From the NCBI GenBank assembly GCA_002841155.1, contig PHEH01000007.1, positions 1 through 64,000 on the forward strand: a stretch of DNA of 64,000 nt. The letters run 5' to 3'. This document shows positions 39,103 to 47,983 of this stretch, one piece after another (the first letter of the stretch is position 1; each line of letters starts with the position of its first letter). The translations under genes were made by a program, and so were the position numbers. The stretch is from Alphaproteobacteria bacterium HGW-Alphaproteobacteria-18 (GTDB lineage Bacteria > Pseudomonadota > Alphaproteobacteria > Caulobacterales > Hyphomonadaceae). The notes under the pieces were generated by a model that worked only from the letters and a program-made list of their open reading frames with translations, had not been told where the DNA came from and did not search any database.

Positions 39103-39489
39103 TCAGGCGGAGACAGGCGGCGCGCGGGGCGCCGAAAAGCGTGTTGAAAGACAATGCGCTGTAGAGAGGCCCACAGGGGGATCAGGCAGCGACTCCTGCG
39201 CCGCAACCGGGAAGGCATACCCTTCAAACACCGCAAACACGGCTGGGGGCGTATCGTCCCCATCAGATGGCGTGATCTGAAGGCGCACCCTCTGGTCGCG
39301 ATCTGCCTTCGGCAGGATGGTATGTGCAACCTGCGTGGCGCCGCCGCTGGCTTCTGTAATCGGCAATACAGGCGCAGCCGCCTGGTTGCCCGAGGATATC
39401 GCTGTTGCCGCCAACATCATGAAGCCGAGCACTGCAATCAGCAGGCTGCCCGGATGCAGTTTTCTCGTGGAGGAAAGTCTGCGGCTCAT
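39103..39489 (-). CDS. Hypothetical protein with a signal peptide or anchor
   Basis: A 128-residue frame: basic MSRRLSSTRK start, hydrophobic segment (about 15-33, LLIAVLGFMMLAATAI), then a soluble, Pro/Asp/Ala-rich region with LQITPSDGDD and a Pro-rich end. The composition fits a small exported or membrane-anchored protein, but neither ATG (39489 or 39498) has a clear ribosome-binding site and no family is recognised. The surrounding 950-bp gap otherwise has no gene; the part at 38808-39102 shows nothing notable. Confidence 0.4.
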   Translation of the reverse strand: MSRRLSSTRKLHPGSLLIAVLGFMMLAATAISSGNQAAAPVLPITEASGGATQVAHTILPKADRDQRVRLQITPSDGDDTPPAVFAVFEGYAFPVAAQESLPDPPVGLSTAHCLSTRFSAPRAPPVSA

Positions 39490-39689
39490 TGCGCCCATGT
39501 AAACATTGTGATGGCGCTACGCCATAGGAAAACGTCAGCCTTTCGACCCGCCCCTGTCCCTCTGGAACCTTCCCGGTCACACTCATGGAATCTGTCTTCT
39601 CCCATGCATGCCGTGATGATGTGGCCCGCCCCCGGACCTGCCCGAGACCTGATCTTTTCTCGCCAGGCGACAGGCTGAAACGATATCGC

Positions 39690-39723
39690 TTGACGTTCGA
39701 ATCCATTGTGAGTAAACACTCAC
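39690..39723 (+). promoter_or_regulatory. Promoter with overlapping TetR-type operator for the KAS III operon
   Basis: TTGACG (39690-39695), 17 bp, TAAACA (39713-39718) forms a sigma70-like promoter. The -10 lies inside a perfect inverted repeat GTGAGT-AAAC-ACTCAC (39708-39723), the size and style of a TetR-family operator. A bound repressor would block transcription. The start codon is 34 bp further on, with GAGAGG upstream. Confidence 0.65.
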
Positions 39724-39757
39724 TTATGAATACGGAACGCACTCAGAGAGGCCCCGA

Positions 39758-40753
39758 ATGTTGAACGCAGCCCTTCTTGGCACAGGCGCGCGCGCCGGAG
39801 GCAAGGCCCTGCCGTCAGCCGAAATTGACGCCCGCCTGGGCAAACCCGCCGGCTGGACCGAAGGCGCGAGCGGTGTCATTTGCCGCCCCGTTCTGGCCGA
39901 AGGCGAAACTCAGGAGAGCCTCGCCCTGGCCGCCGCGCAGCTGGCCCTTGCCGATGCCTGTCTTGATGCCAGCGATATCGACCTCCTCCTCTTCGCCTCC
40001 GCCGTGGGCCGCCAGCCGATCCCCTCGACCGCCACGCTGATCAAGCGCGAGCTTGGCCTCAGCCACTGCGCCGCCCCTGCCTTTGACATCAACGCCACCT
40101 GCCTCAGCGCGGTCGCCGCCATGGAAGTCGCCGCGCTCTACATCGCCGCTGGCCGCGCCCGGCATGTGCTCATCGTAGCCAGCGAGATCGCCACCCGCGC
40201 CCTGCCCTGGGCGGACGATCCGGCTACAGCCGCCCTCTTCGGCGATGGCGCCGCCGCGCTCATCCTTGGCCCGGCTCAAGCGGGCGGCCTGCATCTGCGG
40301 GATGCGGCCCTCGAAACCTGGGCGGAAGGCTATGACTACTGCGCCTTGCCCGCCGGCGGCACGCGCTATGATCTGCACACAAACCGGCAGGCCTTCGAGG
40401 AGAACGCTTTCTTCCGCATGGATGGTCACGCCCTGTTCAAGCTGACGCGCGCCAGACTGCCCGGCTTCATCGCCCGCCTGCTCGATCGCGCCGGCTGGCA
40501 GCAGGAAGAGGTTGACCTTGTGATCCCCCATCAGGCAAGCCCGCTGGCGCTGGAGCATATGATCCGCAAATGCGGCTTTGCCCGCGACCGCGTCGTTTCC
40601 ACCGTCCAGCAGACGGGCAATCTCGTCGCCGCTTCCATCCCCATGACGCTCGACACCGCCCGCCGGGAAGGCCGCATCGCGCCGGGCAGCAAGGTATTGC
40701 TGATAGGCACGTCGGCGGGCGTCTCCATCGGCGGAGCCACGCTGCAGGCATGA
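39758..40753 (+). CDS. 3-oxoacyl-ACP synthase III-like condensing enzyme
   Basis: A 331-residue FabH/OleA-superfamily thiolase with complete Cys115 (INATCLSAV), His258 (IPHQASP) and Asn288 (QTGNLVAAS) triad and a GTSAGVSIGG C-terminal loop. It would perform a decarboxylative or head-to-head Claisen condensation of acyl thioesters. It lacks the standard FabH position next to plsX/fab genes. Instead it opens a five-gene operon in which every neighbour overlaps by 4 bp, so it is probably the chain-initiating or condensing step of a specialised lipid or secondary metabolite. Preceded by an inverted repeat overlapping its promoter. Confidence 0.9.
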   Translation: MLNAALLGTGARAGGKALPSAEIDARLGKPAGWTEGASGVICRPVLAEGETQESLALAAAQLALADACLDASDIDLLLFASAVGRQPIPSTATLIKRELGLSHCAAPAFDINATCLSAVAAMEVAALYIAAGRARHVLIVASEIATRALPWADDPATAALFGDGAAALILGPAQAGGLHLRDAALETWAEGYDYCALPAGGTRYDLHTNRQAFEENAFFRMDGHALFKLTRARLPGFIARLLDRAGWQQEEVDLVIPHQASPLALEHMIRKCGFARDRVVSTVQQTGNLVAASIPMTLDTARREGRIAPGSKVLLIGTSAGVSIGGATLQA

Positions 40754-41718
40754 GCGGCACGATCATCACCGGCGCCACGGGCTTTCTCGGCGGCGCGATT
40801 GCCCGGCGGCTGCTGGCCGAAGGCGAGCGTGTCATCGCGCTTGGCCGCGACCGCGCAAAGCTCGCCGCCCTTGCCGAGGCGGGCGCGGAGACCCACGCCC
40901 TTGATCTGTCCTCTGATGAGCCTCTGCCCAATCTCGATGCCAGCGGCCTCATCCACTGCGCCGCGCTCTCTTCCCCCTGGGGCTCCCGCGTCGCCTTCGA
41001 GCGCGCCAACATCATCGGCACCCGCCGCGCGCTCCATCTGGCACTGGAGGCAGGCGCCCACCGCTTCGTACACATCTCCTCGCCCAGTATCTATTTCCGC
41101 TTTGCCGATCAGGACGCTGTGCCCGAAGACATGCACCTGCCGCCCCCGGTGAACGCTTATACCGCCACCAAGGCCGCCAGCGAACAACTGGTGCTCGCCG
41201 TGCCGGATCTCTCCCCCATCATCCTGCGCCCGCGCGGGCTGTATGGTCCCGGAGACACCGCCCTCCTGCCCCGCCTTCTGCGTGCCGCCGCCACCCGTCC
41301 ACTGCCTCTGATGCGCGGAGGCATCGCGGCGACGGACCTTACTTATATCGACGATGTCGCAGATGCCGCGATCACCGCCCTGCGCGCACCCTCCGCCCCC
41401 TCGCAGATTTACAACGTCTCCGGCGGCGAGGCGCTTTCCATCAAGACGGTAGCAGAGCGTGCCGGGGAAATGGCAGGCATCAACGTCCGCTGGCGGAAGA
41501 TGCCCTGGCCGCTGGTAAAGGCCGCCGCCCGCGCCTCCGAAGCCCTCTGCGCTGCGCTGCCCGGCCGCCCGGAGCCACCCGTCACTGCCTACAGCGCTGG
41601 CCTCTTCGCCTTCCGCCAGACGCTGAGCCTCGCCCGCATAGAGCGCGAGCTTGGCTGGCGCCCGCAGGTTTCCTTTGCCGAGGGACTTGCTAGAACCTTC
41701 GCAGAGAGGGCGCCATGA
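40750..41718 (+). CDS. NAD(P)-dependent epimerase/dehydratase (3beta-HSD/OleD-like)
   Basis: A 322-residue extended SDR: GATGFLG at 8-14 binds the dinucleotide, SSPSIYF carries the catalytic Ser, and AYTATKAASE the YxxxK pair; RPRGLYGPGD and TYIDDVADA are typical of the extended class. OleD-like enzymes reduce the beta-keto acid made by an OleA-type condensing enzyme, which would fit its place after the KAS III gene. ATGA overlap with both neighbours. I chose the ATG at 40750; the longer frame upstream is antisense-like shadow. Confidence 0.87.
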   Translation: MSGTIITGATGFLGGAIARRLLAEGERVIALGRDRAKLAALAEAGAETHALDLSSDEPLPNLDASGLIHCAALSSPWGSRVAFERANIIGTRRALHLALEAGAHRFVHISSPSIYFRFADQDAVPEDMHLPPPVNAYTATKAASEQLVLAVPDLSPIILRPRGLYGPGDTALLPRLLRAAATRPLPLMRGGIAATDLTYIDDVADAAITALRAPSAPSQIYNVSGGEALSIKTVAERAGEMAGINVRWRKMPWPLVKAAARASEALCAALPGRPEPPVTAYSAGLFAFRQTLSLARIERELGWRPQVSFAEGLARTFAERAP

Positions 41719-42491
41719 TTCACCCCGAATTTCCAAACAGTGCGTTCGTTTCCGCGCCCGAACGCTTCGTCCTGAAGGGCGGGCGCTGGGCCCCGGTGCG
41801 CCTGCCCGTTCGCTATGGCTGTTTCGATCACCGCATCTTCGGGCGCTGCCTCATAGACACCGGCTATTCCCCCCGCGTCACCAGTGGCAAGCGCAGCCTG
41901 CCACTCTGGCTCTATTCTAAAGTGCTCAGCCCGAAACTGACCCCGCAGGCCCTCCCCGCCGCTGAGCCGCGCGTCAACTGCATCCTCCTCTCCCATCTGC
42001 ATGCAGATCATGTCAGCGCCCTGAAGGACTATCCCGACGCGCGCATATTCGCCGATGGCGCGGCGGTCGAGCATTTCCTGTCAGCGGGCTGGTTTGGGCG
42101 CACCCATAAAGGCTGCTTCCGGGAACTCCTCCCCGATGATCTGCGCGAGCGTCTGCTGCCGTTCGAAGCCCTGCCGCGAGAAGAAGCCCCCCATGGCCTC
42201 GGCCCGGCGGCCGACATTTTCGGCGATGCCAGCGTCCTTGCCGTGCCCCTGCCGGGCCACATGCGCGGCCATACCGGCTTCCTCTTCAACGGCCCCGTCG
42301 CGCCGCTTCTCTATGCCGCCGACGCGGACTGGCTCTCCCGCGCCATCTTCGAGGATCGCTCGCCGGGATACCCTGCGCGGCTCGTGCTGGACGATCCCGC
42401 CGCCGCCGCACAGACTGCCCTCCGTATCCGGAATTTCATTGCGCTGGGCGGGCGTCTTGCCCTCTGCCATGATCCAGAAGCGCCGGCATGA
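41715..42491 (+). CDS. Metallo-beta-lactamase-fold hydrolase
   Basis: A 258-residue binuclear-metal hydrolase. HLHADH (94-99), the GHMRGHTGF His, an ADADW Asp and a C-terminal CHDPEAP His match the lactonase/thioesterase branch of the fold (AHL-lactonase-like spacing). It may hydrolyse an acyl thioester or lactone intermediate of the operon's product. Overlaps both neighbours by 4 bp. Confidence 0.87.
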   Translation: MIHPEFPNSAFVSAPERFVLKGGRWAPVRLPVRYGCFDHRIFGRCLIDTGYSPRVTSGKRSLPLWLYSKVLSPKLTPQALPAAEPRVNCILLSHLHADHVSALKDYPDARIFADGAAVEHFLSAGWFGRTHKGCFRELLPDDLRERLLPFEALPREEAPHGLGPAADIFGDASVLAVPLPGHMRGHTGFLFNGPVAPLLYAADADWLSRAIFEDRSPGYPARLVLDDPAAAAQTALRIRNFIALGGRLALCHDPEAPA

Positions 42492-43753
42492 ACCTCTCCG
42501 CCACCGTCTTCACACTCGCCGCCTTTGCCGAGGCACGCCGCCGCCAGGCCTCTGCGCGTTCGCGGCATCATTTGCTCACCGCGCAACAGAAGCGGCTGGA
42601 TAAATTCCTCGCTGGAAAAGCGGCCGCAGTGCCCGCCTTCGCTGATTTTCAGGGCCTTCCCCTCGGCGACTGGCCGGTAATGGATAAGGCTGCCCTGATG
42701 ACAGATTTTGCCCGCTACAACCGCCTCGGCCTCACCGCACCCGAAGGTTGGGCGCATCTTGAGGCGGGCACCGCCCCCAAGGGCTACGCCATCGGCGCCA
42801 GCACCGGCACCTCGGGCAATCGCGGGCTCTATATCGTCTCGGCGCGCGAGCGCTATCGCTGGCTCGGCACCATCCTCGCACGCGCCCTGCCAGACTTTCT
42901 CGTCCGCCGCCACCGCGTGGCAATTGTCCTGCCCGCCAACAGCCGCCTCTATGACGCCGCCAATGAAAGCGGGCGCCTGCAGCTCCGCTTCTTTGATCTT
43001 GGCCAGGGCATCGACGCGCAGTTTTTGCCGCTGGCGGAGTTTCAGCCTACGGTCATTGTCGCGCCGCCGAAATTTCTTCGTGCGCTCTCTGAAAGTGACA
43101 CATCACTCGCGCCCGAACGCATCTTTTCCGGCGCCGAAGTGCTCGACGGGGAAGACCGCCGCATCATTGAGGCGCGTTTCGGGCATAAGGTGCGCGAGAT
43201 CTACATGGCCACCGAAGGCCTCTTCGCCATTGCCTGCAAACACGGCACGCTGCATCTTCTGGAAGACCAACTCGCCTTCGAATTCCTGCCCATTGAGGAC
43301 AGCGATACGCTGGTAACCCCCCTCATCACGGATTTCTCGCGCGAAACTCAGGTGATGGTCCGCTACCGGATGAATGATGTTCTGGAGCTTTCGGACGCGC
43401 CCTGCCCCTGCGGCGCGCCCCACCGCGCCATCAGGCAGATCCATGGCCGCTGCGACGACATTTTCACCCTCCCCAGTTATGGCCGCCCCGTGCGCGTCAC
43501 GCCGGATGTGATCCGCAATGCCGTGCTGCGCGCGGACAAGCGCATTTCCGATTTCCGGGTCACGCAGATTGCGCGCAACAAGGTGCTGCTGGAACTGAAA
43601 GCCGAAGAGGCAGACTGCCTGCCTGCTGCGCGCGCCAGCCTCGATGCGCTGTTCCGAGCCTGCGGCGCTGCGCCGGAGGTCACGGCCGCCACCGCCGCGC
43701 TCGCCCCGCCTTCGGATCACAAGCTACGCCGCGTGCGGGTCGCCCTCCCATGA
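42488..43753 (+). CDS. Adenylate-forming enzyme, coenzyme F390 synthetase/PaaK-like
   Basis: A 421-residue ANL-like enzyme. The ATP loop STGTSGNRG lies at 105-113, with EIYMATEGLFA (aromatic/Glu adenylate motif) near 240 and YRMNDVLELS near 295. A CPCGAPHR stretch (zinc-type, as in PaaK/F390 synthetases) and GRCDDIF follow. It should activate a carboxylic acid as its adenylate. F390 itself is unlikely in this organism, so the substrate is probably an aryl or acyl acid of the pathway. 4-bp overlaps with its neighbours. Confidence 0.85.
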   Translation: MNLSATVFTLAAFAEARRRQASARSRHHLLTAQQKRLDKFLAGKAAAVPAFADFQGLPLGDWPVMDKAALMTDFARYNRLGLTAPEGWAHLEAGTAPKGYAIGASTGTSGNRGLYIVSARERYRWLGTILARALPDFLVRRHRVAIVLPANSRLYDAANESGRLQLRFFDLGQGIDAQFLPLAEFQPTVIVAPPKFLRALSESDTSLAPERIFSGAEVLDGEDRRIIEARFGHKVREIYMATEGLFAIACKHGTLHLLEDQLAFEFLPIEDSDTLVTPLITDFSRETQVMVRYRMNDVLELSDAPCPCGAPHRAIRQIHGRCDDIFTLPSYGRPVRVTPDVIRNAVLRADKRISDFRVTQIARNKVLLELKAEEADCLPAARASLDALFRACGAAPEVTAATAALAPPSDHKLRRVRVALP

Positions 43754-45012
43754 GGGTCTCGATCCAGACCCTCGGGAGCCTCGGCGATGTGATGCCCTAT
43801 ATCACCACCGCCCGCGCCCTCATGGCGGGCGGCGATGAGGTCACCCTGATGGCCCCGCGCGAATACACCGCTACGATCATCGCCCACGGCGTCACGCCCG
43901 CCACCGCGCCCGCCTTCTCCCTGAATGAATGGAATGCCGAGGCCGAGCGGCGGGGCACATTGTCCGATCCCGTACAATTCTTCCGGGACTGGGGCGAGAT
44001 GGTCGTGCCCTATGTAGAAGACATCACCGCCCATTGCCTGATGGCGGCCGAGCACGCTGACATCCTGCTGGGCAACAGCATCTGCGCGCCCGCCCGCGTC
44101 ACGGCGGAGGCCTATGAAATCCCCTACATTCTCAGCGCCCAGCAGCCCGTCCTCAGCCCCACGCGCGAGGCCCCGTGCGCCATGATGTGGCGCCCATGGC
44201 AGGGCGCCTGGATGAACAAGGCGGGCTACCTCACGGTCGATATTGCTCAGCGCCTGATGCTCGAAGCTTTGAAGGAACAGCGCCGCGCGCTGGATCTCCG
44301 CCCCATCCCGGAAGGCGGCATGCGCCGCCACCTTGGCCAGCCGCTCGCCCACGTTACCAGCGTCTCACCCGCGCTTCTTCCGGCCCGGCCCGCAGACTGG
44401 CGCGCGAACGATCATCTCACGCCCTATCCGTCTCTGGATGTTCAGGGGCCGGATGACCTACCGCCCGCGCTTCTGGATTTCCTAAACAGCGGCGCGCCGC
44501 CCCTGCATGTCGGCCTCGGCTCCTTCGAGAGCGACGCCGAACGGGAACAGATGTCCCGGCTGATGCGCGCCATCCGCCGCCTGCGCCTGCGCGCCATCAT
44601 CTCCTCGGGCCTTGCAGAGCAGCTGCCGCACGAGCTGACCAAGGACCATTTCATCGCCGGCCACGTCTCCCATCCCGCGCTCTTCCCGCTCTGCGCCGGT
44701 GTCATCCATCATGGCGGCGCAGGCACGCTCGACACCGCCCTGCGCGCGGGCACGCCGCAGCTGATCGTGCCTGACCGGCTCGACCAGTTCTGGCATGGCG
44801 CGCGCCTGCGCGAGATCGGCGTCGCCCCGGCCCATATCACCGGCAGGACCACCGAAGATGAAATGGCCGGGTTGCTGACGGAGCTCACAAGCCCGGAGAT
44901 GCGCGCCCGGGCGCAGGCGCTTGCCCCGGCCCTGCGCGCCCGTAATGGCGCCGGTGATCTCGCCGCTTTCACACGCGGCGAAAGAGAGCGCTTCCAACAA
45001 AATGCGAGATAA
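43750..45012 (+). CDS. Family 1-type glycosyltransferase
   Basis: A 420-residue GT-B enzyme of the UGT/sterol-glucosyltransferase style. The N-terminal TLGSLGDVMPYITTARAL is the G(S/T)xGDVxP motif. The C-terminal donor site is HHGGAGTLDTALRAGTPQLIVPDRLDQFWHG, with Asp/Gln in the PDxxDQ donor-sugar position. It probably glycosylates the product built by the preceding four enzymes. Its last 44 bp overlap the 3' end of the convergent DedA-family gene. Confidence 0.9.
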   Translation: MRVSIQTLGSLGDVMPYITTARALMAGGDEVTLMAPREYTATIIAHGVTPATAPAFSLNEWNAEAERRGTLSDPVQFFRDWGEMVVPYVEDITAHCLMAAEHADILLGNSICAPARVTAEAYEIPYILSAQQPVLSPTREAPCAMMWRPWQGAWMNKAGYLTVDIAQRLMLEALKEQRRALDLRPIPEGGMRRHLGQPLAHVTSVSPALLPARPADWRANDHLTPYPSLDVQGPDDLPPALLDFLNSGAPPLHVGLGSFESDAEREQMSRLMRAIRRLRLRAIISSGLAEQLPHELTKDHFIAGHVSHPALFPLCAGVIHHGGAGTLDTALRAGTPQLIVPDRLDQFWHGARLREIGVAPAHITGRTTEDEMAGLLTELTSPEMRARAQALAPALRARNGAGDLAAFTRGERERFQQNAR

Positions 45013-45565
45013 CCCCCGCAATCAGGAACACGGCCTGCCCGGCGGCCAGCAGCGCCCATTTATGCGCCGCGATGAAGGCCTCCACATCCACATTGCCCCG
45101 GCCCGCGCCCCAGGCCGCCGCGTAGCCAATCGCGACGAACATCCCGACGCCGAGCGTCACGCCCAGCGCTGAGCCCACCGCGAAGCGCTGCCACGCCATG
45201 CCCGCGCTGCCGCACACCGGCGGCATGAACCAGGCAATCGGCCCGAGGAGCCGCGAGACCGCCACCGCCTTGATGCCATGGCGCGCCAGCAGGCCGCGCG
45301 TCTTGCGCAGCGCCGCCCGCCGCGAGCGCTTAGCCAGCGCAAAGCGGTTGAATACGGGCCGCATCTGCCGCCCGATCAGATAGCCCGTCTGGTCGGCCGC
45401 ATACGCCCCGGCAAAGACCGCCGCCACCGCCCACCATGCCCGCTCGGTGAACAGCAGCCCGCCGGCCATCAGGAAGAAGGCTTCCCCGAACACGAAGAAG
45501 CAGAAGCCCAGCGTCGCGTCGAAGAACGCGCCGAGGAAGAGAGTCAGAAGCAGCGAAACCGACAT
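44969..45565 (-). CDS. DedA/VTT-domain membrane protein
   Basis: A 198-residue inner-membrane protein with the VTT (SNARE-associated) domain: FGEAFFLMAGGLL, the re-entrant AYAADQTGYLIGR motif, FLLARHG-type helix (RGLLARHGIKAVAVSRLLGPIAWFMPPVCG) and a final membrane helix. DedA proteins act as lipid (undecaprenyl-phosphate or phospholipid) flippases. I chose the ATG at 45565; the upstream codon at 45589 is TTG without a ribosome-binding site. It converges on the glycosyltransferase gene with a 44-bp overlap, so the two may interfere transcriptionally. Confidence 0.82.
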   Translation of the reverse strand: MSVSLLLTLFLGAFFDATLGFCFFVFGEAFFLMAGGLLFTERAWWAVAAVFAGAYAADQTGYLIGRQMRPVFNRFALAKRSRRAALRKTRGLLARHGIKAVAVSRLLGPIAWFMPPVCGSAGMAWQRFAVGSALGVTLGVGMFVAIGYAAAWGAGRGNVDVEAFIAAHKWALLAAGQAVFLIAGVISHFVGSALFRRV

Positions 45566-45633
45566 GTTTTTCCAGGGCCAGATGAGCAAAGGCCGCCGCG
45601 ATCTCCGCGACGGCCCTGCCTGTCTACAATTGC

Positions 45634-45668
45634 TGTCCTGATTTGTCCCGGATTGTCCTGATCTGTCC
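45634..45668 (+). repeat. TGTCC array, copy B (four 10-bp units, after tex)
   Basis: TGTCC at 45634, 45644, 45654 and 45664, exactly 10 bp apart, ending where the tex stop codon (45668-45670) begins. On the tex coding strand the unit reads GGACA, the same orientation as in copies A and C. Confidence 0.85.
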
Positions 45669-47983
45669 TATTTGAGACGCGAGAGAACACTGAACGGGCT
45701 GTCGGATGGCTTGGATTGGTCCTTCGCAGGCGCCGTTTTGCCCGAAGGCGCAGAGGCAGCCTTGTCCGGCGCGCCGGAGGGGCGCTTGCCCCCCTGTTTC
45801 ATGCTGAGGGCAATGCGCTTGCGGGCGACATCCACCTCCATCACCACCACGCTCACAACCTGCCCTGTTTTCACGGCGTCATGCGGGTCTTTGATGAAGG
45901 TGTCAGACATCTCCGAGATGTGGACAAGCCCGTCCTGATGCACGCCGATATCCACGAACGCGCCAAAGGCGGTGACGTTAGTCACCACGCCTTCAAGGCG
46001 CATGCCGGGCTTCAGGTCGGTCACCTTCTCGATGCCCTCCTGGAAGGTCGCTGTCTTGAATTCGGGGCGCGGGTCGCGGCCGGGTTTTTCCAGCTCTTTC
46101 AGGATGTCCCGGATCGTCGGCACGCCGAATGTCGCGTCGGCAAAGTCTTCCGGTTTCAGCTTTGAAATGAAGGCTTTATCGCCGATGATCGTTTCGACTT
46201 TGCGGCCCGCCGCCTTGGCGATGCGCTCCACCACCGGATAGGCTTCAGGGTGAACCGCCGAGGCGTCCAGCGGGTTCTTGCCATTCATGATGCGCAGAAA
46301 TCCGGCGGCCTGCTCAAAGGCTTTCGGTCCGAAACGCGGCACTTTCTTCAGCTCATTGCGCGCCTTGAACGGGCCATTCTGCTCACGATACGCCACGATG
46401 TTCGCCGCAATCGTTGCGTTGAGACCCGCCACCCGCGCCAGCAGCGCCACAGATGCCGTATTCACGTCCACACCCACCGCGTTCACGCAGTCTTCCACAA
46501 CACCGTCGAGCGAGCGGGCAAGGCCTGCCTGATCCACGTCATGCTGATACTGGCCAACGCCAATCGCCTTGGGCTCGATCTTCACCAGCTCCGCCAGCGG
46601 ATCTTGCAGACGCCGCGCAATCGAGACCGCCCCGCGCAGGCTGACATCCAGTTCCGGGAATTCCTTGGCCGCCAGTTCCGACGCTGAATAGACCGAGGCG
46701 CCCGCTTCCGACACCATGATCTTGGTAAGCTTCAATTCCGGCAGCTTCGTGCCGAGATCGCCGACCAGCTTCTCGGTCTCGCGGCCCGCCGTGCCATTGC
46801 CGACACTGACCAGCTCCACCTTGTGGCGCTTGCAGAGGGTCGCCAGCGTCATCAGGGAGCCGGCCCAATCTTTCTTCGGTTCATGCGGATAGATGGTCGC
46901 CGTTTCCAGCAGTTTTCCGGTCGCGTCCACCACCGCCACCTTGCAGCCCGTGCGGATGCCGGGGTCGATCCCCATCACCACTTTCGGGCCAGCGGGCGCC
47001 GCCATCAGCAGGTCATGCATGTTGCGAGAGAACACCTTGATGGCGTCGCGATCGGCGCCCTCTTTCACGCGGCTGATCACATCGCGCGAGGAGGAGGGCT
47101 CCATCTTGCTTTTCCAGGCAGCTTCGGCGGTATCCATCAGCCAATCGTCGCCGGGGCGGCCCTTCTTGGCGATGCCGAACTCGGTGCGGATTTCGCGCAG
47201 CGCCGGATGCTCGCGGCCCTGCTCCACCGGCACGGCGAGTTTCACTTTCAGCACGCCTTCCTTCTGCCCGCGCAGCACAGCCAGCGCGCGGTGGGACGGC
47301 ATCTGCGTGACCGGCTCATCAAAATCGAAATAGTCGGAAAACTTCGCGCCGTCCTGCTCCTTGCCTTTGACGAGGCTGGAGCCAAGCTTGCCCTCTTTCC
47401 ACACTGTCTCGCGCACCTTGCCGACAAGGCGCGGCGTCTCGGCGATCCGTTCCACCAGAATGTCCCGCGCGCCTTCCAGCGCCGCGTCGAGATCCTTCAC
47501 GCCCTTGCCGGACGCGATGAAGGCCTTGGCCTCATCGAACGGCGAAAGCGAAGGGTTTGCCAGCAGGCGTTCGGCCAGCGGCTCGAGGCCCGCTTCCTTC
47601 GCGATGGTCGCCTTGGTGCGGCGTTTCTGTTTGTAGGGGGCGTAGAGGTCTTCAAGCGCCACCTTGGTCAGCGCCCAGTTGATCTCGCGCTCCAGCGCCG
47701 GGGTCAGCTTGCCCTGCTCGCGGATGGCGCTCAGCACCGTTTCACGGCGCTTGGCGAGGTCAGTGAGATAATCGAGCCGTTCGGCAAGGTTGCGCAGCTG
47801 CGTATCATCCAGCCCGCCCGTGCGTTCCTTGCGATAGCGCGCAATGAAGGGCACCGTCGCGCCCTCCTCCAGCAGCTCCATGACAGACTGAACCTGCCGC
47901 TCCTGAACGCCCAGCTCATCAGCAATGATACGGGCAATCGAGGGGGGAGCAGCCTGGGAAGAAGAACGAACCTGTCCGGTCAT
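45668..47983 (-). CDS. tex: Tex, RNA-binding transcriptional accessory protein
   Basis: A 771-residue Tex protein: N-terminal helical domain with TVPFIARYRKERTGGLDD, the YqgF/RNase H-like domain (VMGIDPGIRTGCKVAVVD), helix-hairpin-helix repeats (LNATIAANIVAYREQNGPF and KVPRFGPKAFEQAAGFLRI) and a C-terminal S1 RNA-binding domain (RLEGVVTNVTAFGAFVDIGVHQDGLVHIS). A Lys/Ser/Pro-rich tail follows. It interacts with RNA polymerase and nucleic acids. ATG at 47983 chosen; upstream in-frame Met codons would add residues not seen in the family. A TGTCC array follows the stop directly. Confidence 0.95.
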   Translation of the reverse strand: MTGQVRSSSQAAPPSIARIIADELGVQERQVQSVMELLEEGATVPFIARYRKERTGGLDDTQLRNLAERLDYLTDLAKRRETVLSAIREQGKLTPALEREINWALTKVALEDLYAPYKQKRRTKATIAKEAGLEPLAERLLANPSLSPFDEAKAFIASGKGVKDLDAALEGARDILVERIAETPRLVGKVRETVWKEGKLGSSLVKGKEQDGAKFSDYFDFDEPVTQMPSHRALAVLRGQKEGVLKVKLAVPVEQGREHPALREIRTEFGIAKKGRPGDDWLMDTAEAAWKSKMEPSSSRDVISRVKEGADRDAIKVFSRNMHDLLMAAPAGPKVVMGIDPGIRTGCKVAVVDATGKLLETATIYPHEPKKDWAGSLMTLATLCKRHKVELVSVGNGTAGRETEKLVGDLGTKLPELKLTKIMVSEAGASVYSASELAAKEFPELDVSLRGAVSIARRLQDPLAELVKIEPKAIGVGQYQHDVDQAGLARSLDGVVEDCVNAVGVDVNTASVALLARVAGLNATIAANIVAYREQNGPFKARNELKKVPRFGPKAFEQAAGFLRIMNGKNPLDASAVHPEAYPVVERIAKAAGRKVETIIGDKAFISKLKPEDFADATFGVPTIRDILKELEKPGRDPRPEFKTATFQEGIEKVTDLKPGMRLEGVVTNVTAFGAFVDIGVHQDGLVHISEMSDTFIKDPHDAVKTGQVVSVVVMEVDVARKRIALSMKQGGKRPSGAPDKAASAPSGKTAPAKDQSKPSDSPFSVLSRLK

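Follow-up and report, generated by a model that had tools for sequence, protein, structure and literature searches.

We analyzed a 64,000-nucleotide stretch (the window: positions 1 to 64,000, forward strand, of contig PHEH01000007.1 from Alphaproteobacteria bacterium HGW-Alphaproteobacteria-18), in which five plus-strand open reading frames (ORFs) at 39758-45012 encode a ketoacyl synthase III-type ketosynthase (KAS III, hereafter KAS), an extended short-chain dehydrogenase/reductase (SDR), a metallo-beta-lactamase-fold (MBL) hydrolase, a PaaK-like adenylase of the TIGR02304 family and a GT1 glycosyltransferase (GT). Consecutive genes share a 4-bp ATGA overlap at all four junctions. An initial annotation had taken the five for one translational unit, which the ORF coordinates support, and family-model searches returned the same gene families that it had named. 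The unit that is conserved, however, is a core formed by the first four genes (KAS, SDR, hydrolase and adenylase), and the GT is one among several endings found with it. The five genes themselves hold up, but an upstream palindrome and a convergent, co-inherited DedA/VTT gene had been overlooked at the operon boundaries (Table 1).

Table 1. Features of the operon and its flanks (positions in the window).
Feature	Positions	Strand	Basis
Possible promoter, TTGACG-17-TAAACA	39690..39718	+	read by eye; putative
Perfect 16-bp palindrome GTGAGTAAACACTCAC, likely operator	39708..39723		sequence; motif shared with relatives
KAS III-type ketosynthase, MxnB/CorB-like, 331 aa	39758..40753	+	family models, profile search, aligned rows
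Extended SDR, OleD-like but far below the OleD cut-off, 322 aa	40750..41718	+	family models
Metallo-beta-lactamase-fold hydrolase, lactonase-like, 258 aa	41715..42491	+	profile, predicted structure, aligned rows
TIGR02304 PaaK-like adenylase, 421 aa	42488..43753	+	289 bits, cut-off 251.9
GT1 glycosyltransferase, lineage-specific finishing enzyme, 420 aa	43750..45012	+	family model, solved-chain matches
DedA/VTT membrane protein, convergent, 198 aa	44969..45565	-	PF09335; co-inheritance with the GT gene

The core recurs well outside the source genome, the lack of which the initial annotation had named as the outcome that would count against it. Gene prediction on 42 loci (numbered with the prefix L; genomes with G) recovered all four core genes in 38, of which 36 are distinct; the exceptions are L048, L063, and L065 and L066, the last two being contigs of genome G408 over which the core genes are split. 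When the adenylase was used to scan a species-genome collection, 17 loci were found; 16 of them have the full core and the other sits at a contig end. Among 398 genomes of the phylum, 60 match TIGR02304, 7 of them (including the source genome) over the cut-off; the core was present in each of the nine best other loci out of these 60 (6 over and 3 under the cut-off), the 50 remaining matches being much weaker and outside this count. The common gene order is KAS-SDR-MBL-adenylase, although the SDR comes last in L040 and the adenylase lies on the opposite strand in three Sphingomonas loci. The closest named relative is a Hyphomonas sp. metagenome-assembled genome (81-86% identity across the four core proteins). 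Each of the three core junctions also measures -4 in the five nearest relatives (L032, L067-L070), and because of this repetition the overlaps exceed chance.

We further surveyed 91 genomes of the family for the adenylase, KAS, hydrolase, GT and DedA genes (that is, without the SDR). The adenylase was found in 18 (E<=1e-30), the KAS in 17 (E<=1e-70) and the hydrolase in 17 (E<=1e-25), with KAS and adenylase together in 16 and hydrolase and adenylase together in 17 (Fisher p ~1e-14 and 2e-17, respectively, uncorrected for kinship). One genome, G406, has a KAS match without an adenylase. Pairwise divergences across the 36 loci are correlated for all six pairs of core genes (r = 0.85-0.92, likewise uncorrected for shared ancestry); the highest values reached over 300 label shuffles were 0.20-0.27.

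Cys115, His258 and Asn288 of the KAS, whose positions had been given correctly, are invariant in 39 of 39 aligned rows (2 of them duplicates), as are Gly200 and Gly201. A 19-row KAS profile scored 282 bits with solved chain 4v2p, which we take to be MxnB, 271 with CorB, 247 with FabH and 113 with OleA chains. The KAS is not the housekeeping FabH, since FabH proper is encoded elsewhere in the genome (392.8 bits with TIGR00747, compared with 200.7 for the KAS, below the cut-off of 292.1). The catalytic glutamate is E117 in OleA and E105 in PpyS (PMC4578411, PMC5724707), structure 3S23 is OleA (PMC5724707), and Val94 stands at this position in MxnB and CorB (PMC4578411). Ile88 of the KAS lies 27 residues before Cys115, just as Val94 lies 27 before Cys121 in MxnB, and across the 39 rows the glutamate position is Ile in 33 and Leu in 6. 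A GG(T/S)R-like segment likewise aligns with MxnB/CorB and not with FabH. Judged by its nearest solved relatives, its triad and its lack of the glutamate, the KAS appears to be of the MxnB/CorB type.

The initial annotation had likened the first two enzymes to OleA and OleD of the olefin pathway. For the KAS this is not supported, with Ile88 in place of Glu117 and the OleA score far below that of the presumed MxnB. Nor is the SDR an OleD equivalog: its best curated models are OleD-type 2-alkyl-3-oxoalkanoate reductases, far under their cut-off (163 bits vs. 580), and none of eight genomes searched with the OleD model has a match over that equivalog cut-off. Kinship with Ole was rejected on the basis of the KAS residue, the profile score and this eight-genome search. 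OleB and OleC are indeed missing from the operon (the region examined for them), with the metallo-hydrolase and the PaaK-like adenylase in their place.

The active sites of the other core enzymes are also conserved. In the SDR, Tyr137 and Lys141 are kept in 38 of 39 rows, the remaining row having a gap. The metal ligands of the hydrolase (HxHxDH, H, D, H: H94, H96, D98, H99, H182, D203 and H252) are present in all 39 rows; its curated models are acyl-homoserine lactone (AHL) lactonases, whose cut-offs are not reached (AttM, 42.8 bits vs. an equivalog cut-off of 390), and its predicted structure (predicted local distance difference test, pLDDT, 93) is closest in fold to the AHL lactonase AhlX and 4-pyridoxolactonase. 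An analogy to PqsA-E was rejected, as the 33 chains that the hydrolase profile matched at E<=0.001 include no PqsE. The adenylase passes TIGR02304, and its predicted structure (pLDDT 88) is closest to BT_0428 and PaaK, with TM-scores of only ~0.6 and large root-mean-square deviations. Asp297, Arg321 and Lys412 occur in 41 of 41 rows, as do Cys306 and Cys308, while Cys250 and His256 occur in 40 with one gap; these four Cys and His residues possibly form a metal site.

What accompanies the core differs between lineages. Counting genes within 5 kb, the 36 distinct loci comprise 13 with a GT1 gene, 12 with an ATP-grasp gene plus Rieske and/or GNAT genes, 5 with DUF3419 and a VanA-like protein, and 3 with PAP2, a fatty-acid hydroxylase and two desaturases. 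Three loci have none of these four signatures (L040, which has GT2 and GT1-like genes of its own, L052 and L062), and none of the 36 combines two. DUF3419 is the BtaA family, which we take to be a betaine-lipid headgroup enzyme. Within the source genus, 6 of the 29 sampled genomes are of the GT type and 5 of the DUF3419 type. The DUF3419 genes adjoin the adenylase in all five DUF3419-type genomes; DUF3419 was not found in the seven GT-type genomes tested (six of the source genus, including the source genome) or in four coreless ones. G424, a genome of another genus, has two DUF3419 genes elsewhere. On the adenylase tree, in which L052 is counted as class C by kinship though its module was not found, the five module labels need 5 changes (minimum 4), and the ATP-grasp label alone needs 3.

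Several observations concern the loci of the DUF3419 type (class D). Their VanA-like protein lacks the Rieske CxH...CxxH motif in 5 of 5 loci (L039, L058-L061), whereas the motif is kept in 12 of 12 other members of the protein's cluster; the class D protein is perhaps a repurposed, Rieske-less one. L039, from a metagenome-assembled genome labelled Candidatus Sulfopaludibacter, groups with four loci from the source genus (100/100), and mis-binning is suspected. Near the core of L058-L060, and also of L064 (ATP-grasp type), there is a cytochrome P450 gene; all four belong to one cluster.

The GT matches the EryCIII-like C-terminal domain (51.8 bits, cut-off 31.7), keeps the motif HHGGAGT in 14 full-length rows (12 distinct) and is closest among solved chains to GtfB and a sterol glucosyltransferase; its best curated model is the rifamycin-inactivating Rgt (113 bits vs. 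a cut-off of 800). The convergent DedA/VTT gene (47.8 bits with PF09335, cut-off 33.9) overlaps the GT gene by 44 bp. Of the 91 family genomes, 17 have a GT match (E<=1e-30): 9 carry the operon's own GT (46-100% identity) and 8 carry distant genes elsewhere (27-33%). A DedA ortholog (E<=1e-30) occurs in exactly the 9 operon-GT genomes and in 0 of the other 82. The gene is also found in 12 of 12 distinct GT-type loci that are long enough (L038 stops within the GT gene), is absent from all other fetched loci at E<=1e-6, and keeps its position in Maricaulis, though the genes further on differ. The DedA/VTT gene is thus a co-inherited sixth gene of the GT type.

The core is also found on plasmids and in Escherichia coli. 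The adenylase matched 26 plasmid records, and 14 records were opened (the E. coli one being from the E. coli collection). Twelve of these have the four core genes together, among them two from Bacillota with an ATP-grasp gene between KAS and SDR; in Pseudomonas Leaf58 (L080) the core genes are scattered across ~9 kb. A Rhizobium plasmid, predicted to be conjugative, carries the core with DUF3419. Plasmids of Paracoccus and Ketogulonicigenium have TetR and sulfotransferase genes by the core (L083, 3465-5140; L084, 3422-5028; Pfam assignments on the first only), and this pair may represent a further kind of finishing module. The set in E. coli KE48 (L086, 5457-12338) lies between narI and tRNA-Tyr and has seven genes: the core, PAP2, a sterol-desaturase family gene and an acyl-CoA desaturase. 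In a megablast survey, which misses divergent copies, its DNA was matched in 672 of 5,426 complete E. coli genomes (a collection that is not a random sample). The match covers 80% or more of the set in 671 genomes; 671 of the matching places are chromosomal and 2 lie on plasmids. The core is annotated gene by gene at NCBI in E. coli, Rhizobium, Shinella, Paenibacillus and others. Shinella (L078) and a record labelled Roseateles sp. XES5 (L091) have nearly identical gene order, including a MerR/glutaredoxin pair; the latter label is marked UNVERIFIED_ORG and may be wrong.

We consider it somewhat probable that the operon makes a glycosylated specialised lipid. The chemistry that the initial annotation had read into the genes (condensation, reduction, hydrolysis, acid activation and glycosylation) is supported, and from it we infer a route together with its substrates, step order, lipid, sugar, transport and repressor. 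The PaaK-like adenylase would turn a carboxylic acid into its adenosine monophosphate ester, acting either first or last, and the MxnB-like ketosynthase would take an acyl thioester out of fatty-acid metabolism and condense it with another acyl unit or a malonyl unit. A hydroxyl would arise from the 3-oxo group through reduction by the SDR, cleavage of a thioester or lactone by the metallo-hydrolase would release the chain, and the GT would add a sugar to the hydroxyl. The convergent DedA/VTT protein may carry the glycolipid across the membrane, and a repressor bound at the upstream palindrome may control the operon. Other lineages would use the same four-enzyme core with an exchanged finishing module.

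The product is taken to be a lipid because of the neighbours (fatty-acid hydroxylase, desaturases, PAP2, DUF3419 and DedA/VTT) and the KAS family. A shared hydroxylated lipid scaffold that is finished in different ways best accounts for a constant core whose finishing enzymes vary (sugar transferase, DUF3419, ATP-grasp/GNAT, sulfotransferase or desaturases). We suggest only tentatively that the core defines an undescribed bacterial lipid class: a non-glycerol scaffold built by a cross-phylum four-enzyme core, also made by about one in eight E. coli with complete genomes, and completed by interchangeable modules that would attach a sugar, an amino acid, an aminocarboxypropyl group or sulfate or would desaturate the chain; the glycosylated branch would have a membrane transporter dedicated to it. 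If so, many genomes contain a complete lipid pathway whose genes have been annotated singly and which has gone unrecognised as a whole, and the different endings attached to an unchanging core, two of which occur in a single genus, would be natural experiments on headgroup exchange. It would also point to a possible substrate of a DedA-family protein. Occurrence in E. coli and on plasmids of Rhizobium, Shinella and Paracoccus puts the pathway in tractable hosts.

Several results weigh against a glycosylated lipid made by a dedicated core. Searched alone, the window KAS sequence ranks FabH (164.9 bits) over MxnB (150.5), and the Cys-His-Asn triad is common to both, so the second KAS substrate cannot be told from it. 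Several PaaK-like relatives of the adenylase act on aromatic acids, so the acid that it activates may not be fatty. The product of the core is without description, and a carrier protein is absent from the operon. The core is not always intact: in G432 (L063) adenylase, ATP-grasp and GNAT genes lie near each other, but the 12.8 kb fetched contains no KAS, SDR or hydrolase gene, and only the adenylase is present on P. amygdali pMPPla107 (L087, 7890-9188). Neither the co-occurrence nor the divergence correlations take shared ancestry into account. An empty site was not shown, as Tex is not beside SecDF in the stretches fetched from ten congeners without the GT operon (eight without the core, two of the DUF3419 type); the Tex search covered 12 genomes and gave no match in one of them and, in another, a partial match where a contig begins. 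A consensus promoter scanner returned 0 promoters in 39300-45700.

Other products can be drawn from the same enzymes. An Ole- or lipstatin-like route has the same kinds of steps in the same number: head-to-head condensation, ketoreduction and ring closure by the adenylase would yield a 2-alkyl-3-hydroxy acid or beta-lactone as a substrate for the hydrolase or for tailoring enzymes. The best SDR models (2-alkyl-3-oxoalkanoate reductases) agree with it, and lipstatin is, we presume, a parallel to the operon chemistry; with the OleA glutamate replaced by Ile or Leu in every row, the SDR far below its cut-off, an adenylase that is PaaK-like rather than OleC and no OleB in the operon, we regard it as improbable. 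Somewhat less far-fetched, yet still unlikely, is that the KAS makes an alpha-pyrone out of two acyl chains, the other enzymes preparing the chains or opening the lactone and the GT glycosylating a ring hydroxyl. The top rank of MxnB and CorB with the family profile, the aliphatic residue at the OleA/PpyS glutamate position, the GG(T/S)R-like segment and the lactonase-like hydrolase all fit a pyrone. Neither polyketide synthase (PKS) nor carrier protein is present in the operon, however, a dedicated SDR would be superfluous, and the published tree places MxnB and CorB inside the FabH clade (PMC4578411), so that ranking alone gives no function.

Alternatively, the hydrolase could free a 3-oxo acid that loses CO2, leaving a ketone that the SDR would reduce to a secondary alcohol for glycosylation. 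Such a decarboxylation would account for the hydrolase and supply an alcohol acceptor for every finishing enzyme, but it leaves the adenylase with an upstream role only and is without direct evidence; we think it quite improbable. That the set instead serves to break down or inactivate an acyl compound or signal from outside seems very improbable. The lactonase and GT1 enzymes do resemble lactone-cleaving and drug-inactivating enzymes (AHL lactonases and Rgt as best models), but both scores are far below their cut-offs, and the condensing enzyme, together with desaturase or DUF3419 neighbours elsewhere, points to synthesis.

With a glycosylated lipid as the preferred product, the operon can be set beside known systems. 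It shares with MxnB/CorB the closest solved KAS structures, the triad and the aliphatic residue at the glutamate position, but has no PKS or carrier protein. It shares with OleABCD and lipstatin synthesis a thiolase-fold condensation, an extended SDR, an adenylase and a hydrolase, but differs from OleABCD in lacking the OleA glutamate, OleC, OleB and an OleD equivalog. Rhamnolipid-type glycolipids are synthesized by RhlA/RhlB, and here too a GT1-type enzyme is proposed to glycosylate a hydroxy-lipid; in the operon a dedicated core of four enzymes stands in for RhlA (no search aimed at RhlA was made). Class D relatives place DUF3419 (BtaA) by the core where the source operon has the GT.

The adenylase belongs to TIGR02304, NCBI's ‘F390 synthetase-related protein’, a one-protein family without assigned function for which no product or pathway was found, whereas the operon core comprises four genes; three full-core loci score below the family cut-off. 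The protein families, enzyme classes and logic are already known, but searches of the open-licence literature turned up no description of the set or of its product and no described cluster. Three papers mention such synthetases: a ladderane genomics study has one F390 synthetase mention, in D. psychrophila (PMC2649909), a mutant in a coenzyme F390 synthetase figures in a P. syringae transposon table (PMC9823363), and a study of phenol in Acinetobacter names a coenzyme F390 synthetase (PMC5501837), with no relation to the core cluster established for the latter two. TfmR of Xanthomonas (PMC6637906) does not concern the core cluster.

Upstream of the operon, the motif GTGAGTNNNNACTCAC of the palindrome precedes the KAS gene in 5 of the 6 nearest loci (the window, L032, L067, L069 and L070) and is missing upstream in L068 and the other 30 distinct loci. 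An exact pattern search found a single site in the genome, the operon's own, and no regulator could be found through this pattern. The palindrome overlaps the possible -10 hexamer of the putative promoter, and a comparable promoter-like arrangement lies upstream of KAS in L032, L069 and L070.

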